Positions 33,507 to 33,640 of a stretch of DNA of 64,000 bases are shown piece by piece; positions within the stretch are counted from its first letter, which is position 1; each line of letters begins with the position of its first letter. Both the position numbers and the translations under genes were made by a program. The notes below the pieces were generated by a model. That model searched no databases. It was not told where the DNA came from and saw only the letters and a list, made by a program, of their open reading frames with translations. The stretch lies in contig NZ_ML675578.1 in assembly GCF_007826885.1 (NCBI RefSeq), positions 124,001-188,000 on the forward strand. Direction: 5' to 3'. The DNA is from Candidatus Nitrosocosmicus arcticus (GTDB taxonomy: Archaea > Thermoproteota > Nitrososphaeria > Nitrososphaerales > Nitrososphaeraceae).

Positions 33507-33604
33507 TGCCGCCGGTGAGATTTGAGCTCACGACAGCCCGGTCTTCAGCTTCACCCTGTTTTTGTTAAACAGTCGAGTGCTCTTCCAGGCTGAGCTACGA
33601 CGGC
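33507..33604 (-). tRNA. tRNA-Phe (GAA) with a 24-nt non-canonical intron
   Basis: The acceptor stem is GCCGUCG paired with CGGCGGC (one G-U), the discriminator is A, and the T-arm is GUGAG/CUCAC. Removing 24 nt (33573-33550) between nucleotides 30 and 31 gives a perfect anticodon stem CUCGG/CCGGG around loop CUGAAGA, anticodon GAA at 33546-33544. A bulge-helix-bulge supports this cut: helix CACU/GGUG, bulges CGA and AAG, and inner stem CUGUUU/AAACAG. No CCA is encoded. A TATA-like box lies at 33626-33638. Confidence 0.92.
33550..33573 (-). other. tRNA-Phe intron with bulge-helix-bulge splice motif
   Basis: The two 3-nt bulges CG|A and AA|G flank a 4-bp helix (CACU with GGUG, one G-U pair). 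Cutting after the second base of each bulge releases exactly this 24-nt segment. The intron itself folds as a 6-bp stem with an AACAA loop. Confidence 0.85.
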
Positions 33605-33625: not shown

Positions 33626-33640
33626 ATAGTATATATATTA
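33626..33640 (-). promoter_or_regulatory. TATA box of tRNA-Phe
   Basis: An alternating AT run reading TAATATATATACTAT on the minus strand lies 22-36 bases before the tRNA 5' end at 33604, the normal archaeal distance. Confidence 0.55.

Follow-up and report, generated by a model that had tools for sequence, protein, structure and literature searches.

On the minus strand of the window, i.e., the whole 64,000-nt stretch of DNA that was analyzed, a 98-nt tRNA gene extends from position 33604 to 33507. Its 5' part reads GCCGTCG-TA-GCTC-AGCCTGGAA-GAGC-A-CTCG and is followed by an insert of 24 nt, after which the 3' part reads GCTGAAGACCGGG-CTGTC-GTGAG-CTCAAAT-CTCAC-CGGCGGC-A. The 5' exon (33574..33604, minus strand; 31 nt) comprises the mature positions 1-30; its acceptor and D stems pair, and it is near-invariant among relatives. 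The insert, an intron of the bulge-helix-bulge (BHB) type at position 30/31, occupies 33550..33573. The 3' exon (33507..33549, minus strand; 43 nt) comprises the mature positions 31-73, the CCA end not being encoded. It carries the anticodon GAA at positions 34-36 (33544..33546, minus strand), which was the same in 22 of 22 distinct aligned homologues. Splicing of 33574 to 33549 is predicted to yield the junction …CACUCG-GCUGAAGA….

The Rfam tRNA model (RF00005) matched the locus with exactly the same ends and, with the intron retained (98 nt), scored 42.1 bits against a gathering score of 29. ARAGORN did not call the gene, neither in the window nor in the locus itself with introns allowed. 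The expectation of the preliminary description that simple scanners would misread the gene thus holds for ARAGORN, in that the gene is overlooked. At 26-33 nt before the tRNA 5' end, the sequence TATATATA (33630..33637, minus strand) may be a TATA box; since the surrounding region is A+T-rich, this candidate is weak evidence.

Predicted splicing at position 30/31

Removal of 33573..33550 resulted in a 74-nt cloverleaf in which 7/7 acceptor, 4/4 D, 5/5 anticodon and 5/5 T stem pairs are formed (G-U pairs counted). The spliced anticodon arm reads CUCGG-CUGAAGA-CCGGG, with one U-G among its five stem pairs, the anticodon GAA within the loop CUGAAGA, and A73 as the discriminator base. In the precursor, CACU on the exon side (33576..33579, minus strand) faces GGUG on the intron side (33552..33555, minus strand). 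This centre of four pairs, one of them U-G, lies between two 3-nt bulges, CGA (33573..33575, minus strand) and AAG (33549..33551, minus strand). Based on the known BHB rule and on the junction in intron-less homologues, the cuts are predicted as CG^A and AA^G. The inner stem CUGUUU/AAACAG of the intron stem-loop (33556..33572, minus strand) has six pairs, which are preserved by double changes in relatives, and the outer helix has two pairs only. With a 4-bp centre, two 3-nt bulges, and inner and outer helices, the structure contains all elements of an hBHBh' motif. The BHB motif and the fully paired anticodon stem given in the preliminary description were recomputed with the same outcome.

The motif was compared with chance by shuffling the intron letters 200,000 times while the cut was held constant. 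None of the shuffles combined a 4-bp centre with at least six inner pairs, and 23 combined it with at least three. When all excisions of 12-40 nt within the gene were considered, the full centre with at least three inner pairs was present in just three; the excision at 30/31 had the longest inner stem of these, and none of the three was located at 37/38. An ad hoc intron scanner ranked the 30/31 cut at the top of the excisions tried, with a score of 27.9. The minimum-energy fold of the precursor is not the cloverleaf: a competing long helix reached -38.6 kcal/mol, as compared to -21.3 to -25.5 kcal/mol for the cloverleaf/BHB models. Because the mature tRNA gives the same competing helix, this fold says little, and RNA folding of the precursor was left out as evidence.

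Homologues with and without the insert

The gene was used as a query against forty relatives and the genome to which the window belongs. Alignment to related tRNA-Phe genes, a comparison named in the preliminary description, bore out the insertion site: the tRNA-Phe homologue carried an insert at the same place in 13 of 14 genomes of the same genus and in all 10 genomes from other genera of the family. In G006, the remaining genome of the genus (720 contigs), no tRNA-Phe was found; its match was weak and partial, and its pattern match was not a tRNA. Other families of the order were represented by 16 genomes; the 30/31 insert was present in three of these (G026, G036 and G040), and tRNA-Phe was contiguous at 30/31 in eight. 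Of the latter, G025, G029 and G030 showed no visible insert, while G027, G028, G033, G035 and G037 carried one in the D arm. The pattern search yielded zero matches in G031, G032, G034 and G038, and the match in G039 was not a tRNA. A search of phage records gave no match.

For the alignment, identical rows, G006 and the more distant families except G026 were dropped, leaving 22 distinct sequences. The exons were almost unchanged, and the intron core was variable with compensatory changes. Little or no variation was seen in GAA, in the letters at the junction and in the BHB centre, and the inner stem varied by paired substitutions. Across the 22 sequences, 97.2% of the BHB cells were paired, as compared to 29-45% when the partner was slid. 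In 27 BHB cells, both sides had changed, and 0 of 500 shuffles equalled this count or the pairing of 97.2%; this covariation signal comes from the inner stem alone, because the outer and centre helices hardly vary.

A tRNA-Phe pattern scan of named genomes returned at least 120 loci. The fixed exon letters of the pattern bias this sample, and its loci overlap with those of the forty relatives, so the following counts are not to be read as frequencies. Of the 120 loci among the matches listed, 86 lacked the intron, i.e., the insert was exactly absent as in G025, G029 and G030, and read CAYYCG-GCTGAAGACCG exactly, joined at the predicted junction. Many of the intron-less loci among the matches listed belonged to records titled Nitrosopumilus, Nitrosarchaeum or marine group I, others to records titled Thermoprotei, Bathyarchaeota or Methanomethylicota. 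The other 34 of the 120 loci listed had 16-26 nt between the exons; the full 4-bp centre was present in 34/34 of these, and the first three inner pairs were also present in 26/34. The discriminator was A in 114/114 resolvable loci among the matches listed (117/120 with enough flank, three unresolved), in agreement with the statement of the preliminary description that A fits Phe. Thus, the gene boundaries, the 24-nt intron and the splice site at 30/31 that had been described initially were confirmed by the sequence, by the Rfam ends and by the intron-less homologues joined exactly there. The strongest evidence for intron position and Phe identity is this comparison with relatives and intron-less loci.

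In the named genomes, three homologues with the 30/31 intron (L128, L136 and L152) showed no pairing between the 3' acceptor strand and the bases just upstream of the D arm, and may thus contain a second intron near positions 7-9.

Genomic context and interpretation

The Rfam search of the genome yielded 40 tRNA-like places. Not among them was L070 (G000:C5:31500-31900), a tRNA-Tyr(GTA) interrupted twice, by an intron of 57 nt at about 37/38 and by another of 31 nt in the T arm. A second tRNA-Phe was not found in the genome by Rfam, homologue search or pattern search (22-contig assembly, 98.28% complete); since the assembly is in 22 contigs and at least one tRNA with two introns (L070) escaped Rfam, this result leaves some room for a hidden copy. 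The locus L026 (G000:C10:98229-98331) was found to encode tRNA-Asn(GTT) with discriminator G once a 29-nt non-canonical intron is removed; therefore, the Asn role is already filled. The preliminary description had named a second tRNA-Phe combined with the lack of tRNA-Asn as evidence against its Phe assignment; the genome presented neither the one, as far as found, nor the other.

The ad hoc scanner returned models with an intron outside 37/38 as best or near-best for Pro(GGG), Arg(CCT), Gln(TTG), Glu(TTC) and Leu(TAG), and likewise for Tyr(GTA) with the intron in the T arm and Lys(CTT) with the intron in the variable loop. Non-canonical tRNA introns thus appear to be common in this genome. 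Because the scanner failed or gave implausible results for several multi-intron genes, e.g., L028, L029, L035, L037 and L038, the whole-genome tRNA inventory is incomplete. One of these, L037 (G000:C3:110612-110784), is a weak tRNA-like place (33 bits) which ARAGORN called His(GTG) and in which the ad hoc scanner found no cloverleaf; it may be a relic or a tRNA carried by a mobile element.

Two EndA paralogues scoring over the Pfam cut-off and one RtcB ligase are encoded in the genome. The paralogue on contig C10 carries Tyr, His and Lys at positions that we take to be catalytic; the paralogue on C3 is more diverged and lacks His at what we presume to be the motif position. The C10 paralogue had matches among archaeal endonuclease subunits of known structure, the best being 2cv8 (E 5.8e-46).

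With a probability of roughly 97%, the gene is the apparently sole tRNA-Phe(GAA) of a Nitrosocosmicus-type ammonia oxidizer, with a 24-nt intron at 30/31 that would be cut out by EndA, the exons then being joined by RtcB. The analysis itself showed the sequence and the motif, homologues that have or lack the intron, the covariation and both enzyme genes. The processing and charging of the tRNA in the cell, as well as the subunit arrangement of the endonuclease, are envisaged as follows. The transcript would fold such that the four exon bases CACU of the D/anticodon arm pair with GGUG of the intron, with 3-nt bulges on either side. A heterotetrameric (alpha-beta)2 splicing endonuclease would cut both bulges and thereby release the 24-nt intron from the 30/31 site; RtcB would ligate the exons to a standard tRNA-Phe, which would be charged in the cell.

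It is hardly credible that the locus encodes tRNA-Asn(GUU) and is interrupted at the canonical site 37/38, although the unspliced loop CUGUUUA offers U33 and GUU. As the preliminary description had noted, this reading leaves an A-C mismatch in the anticodon stem, which is formed by A31 opposite C39, and a BHB motif is absent at 37/38. The triplet GUU lies in the variable stem of the intron and differs among relatives (e.g., GTT, GCT, GCA, ATT, GTG and GTA), and the discriminator is A here as compared to G in the real tRNA-Asn of the genome. Moreover, no other tRNA-Phe was found in the genome. The mismatch and the missing BHB motif at 37/38 contradict the Asn reading, and the apparent anticodon is a coincidence inside the intron. 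The Phe identity proposed initially is backed by the invariant GAA and the separate tRNA-Asn(GUU).

That the gene is a pseudogene or a non-functional relic is likewise extremely improbable. The blank ARAGORN result and the 24-nt insert in the precursor would fit a relic, but across the family the exons are near-invariant and the changes in the drifting intron are compensatory. Moreover, no cell can dispense with a tRNA for Phe codons, and this gene was the sole tRNA-Phe found. This reading was dropped on the grounds of the conserved exons, the compensated intron changes and the lack of another tRNA-Phe among those found. A shift of the intron boundary by 1-2 nt in the same tRNA-Phe, i.e., a 22-nt excision after precursor base 32, has very little probability as well. 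An alternative BHB motif with five inner pairs exists for it, but its product of 76 nt has broken D and anticodon stems, its score, the second best, was 19.3 as compared to 27.9, and the intron-less homologues join at 30/31.

The position of the tRNA-Phe(GAA) intron is among the known non-canonical positions of archaeal tRNA introns listed in a review from 2014, which assigns alpha2-beta2 endonucleases to Thaumarchaeota (PMC4090602). Like the introns described there, it combines a 4-bp centre and two 3-nt bulges with a small size and position 30/31; unlike in the present case, the text of the review on 30/31 names neither tRNA-Phe nor Nitrososphaerales. In the work on tRNAscan-SE 2.0 (2021), 107 non-canonical introns were reported from Thaumarchaeota, together with a dedicated covariance model for BHB motifs that was trained on this phylum (PMC8450103). 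The intron described here shares the phylum with these, and because of this model a current archaeal annotator should resolve the gene. The halves of the split tRNA-Lys(CUU) of Nanoarchaeum and Staphylothermus are also joined at 30/31 (PMC3218864). Junction position and hBHBh' motif are the same; however, the split tRNA is derived from separate genes joined in trans, whereas tRNA-Phe is encoded here by one continuous gene. The tRNA-Phe of Nitrosopumilus and other archaea has the same exon sequence, is contiguous at 30/31 and lacks the intron. No report specific to this intron was found in the literature searched, with subscription journals and tRNA databases outside its scope.

The gene is ordinary for soil ammonia-oxidizing archaea, and the intron position is unusual, but already known. 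The intron is conserved across the family, and its presence causes little surprise. The result is mainly a point of annotation: annotation tools that lack an archaeal BHB model overlook the gene or give it a wrong name, and could list a genome as having no tRNA-Phe. With its fixed position, variable core and outgroups lacking the intron, the family-wide set lends itself well to comparing how archaeal tRNA introns are gained, lost and altered by drift, but by itself it raises no new question. It is conceivable, if rather unlikely, that the 30/31 intron is old and persistent in Nitrososphaerales and is kept, e.g., as a processing checkpoint, not merely tolerated, or that tRNA-Phe is a repeated target. 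The latter notion stems from the related lineages without the 30/31 insert that carry the D-arm insert in the same tRNA.

Repeated tRNA-Gly(CCC) ends outside the window

Outside the window, the segment G000:C2:65500-85400 (L237) contains two tRNA-Gly(CCC) loci, L017 (G000:C2:65977-66051) and L031 (G000:C2:84359-84421). On the same strand, 18 kb downstream of the intact gene, there is a partial copy that lacks the anticodon arm; the final 25 nt of the two are identical. Just inside the intact tRNA-Gly(CCC) end, an ORF matches the Pfam family Archaeal phage integrase (PF16795). The segment looks like an integrated mobile element with the tRNA-Gly(CCC) 3' end as the putative attachment site.

In genomes of the same genus, the final 25 nt of tRNA-Gly(CCC) are repeated several times, often about 0.6-1.5 kb apart, as in L236 (G013:C1:3369000-3388500) and also on G009:C72, G007:C1, G011:C361 and G012:C52. 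In L236, each of three intervals between the repeats contains a single ORF of 345-367 aa with similar N-termini, an arrangement resembling small elements inserted in tandem at a tRNA attachment site.
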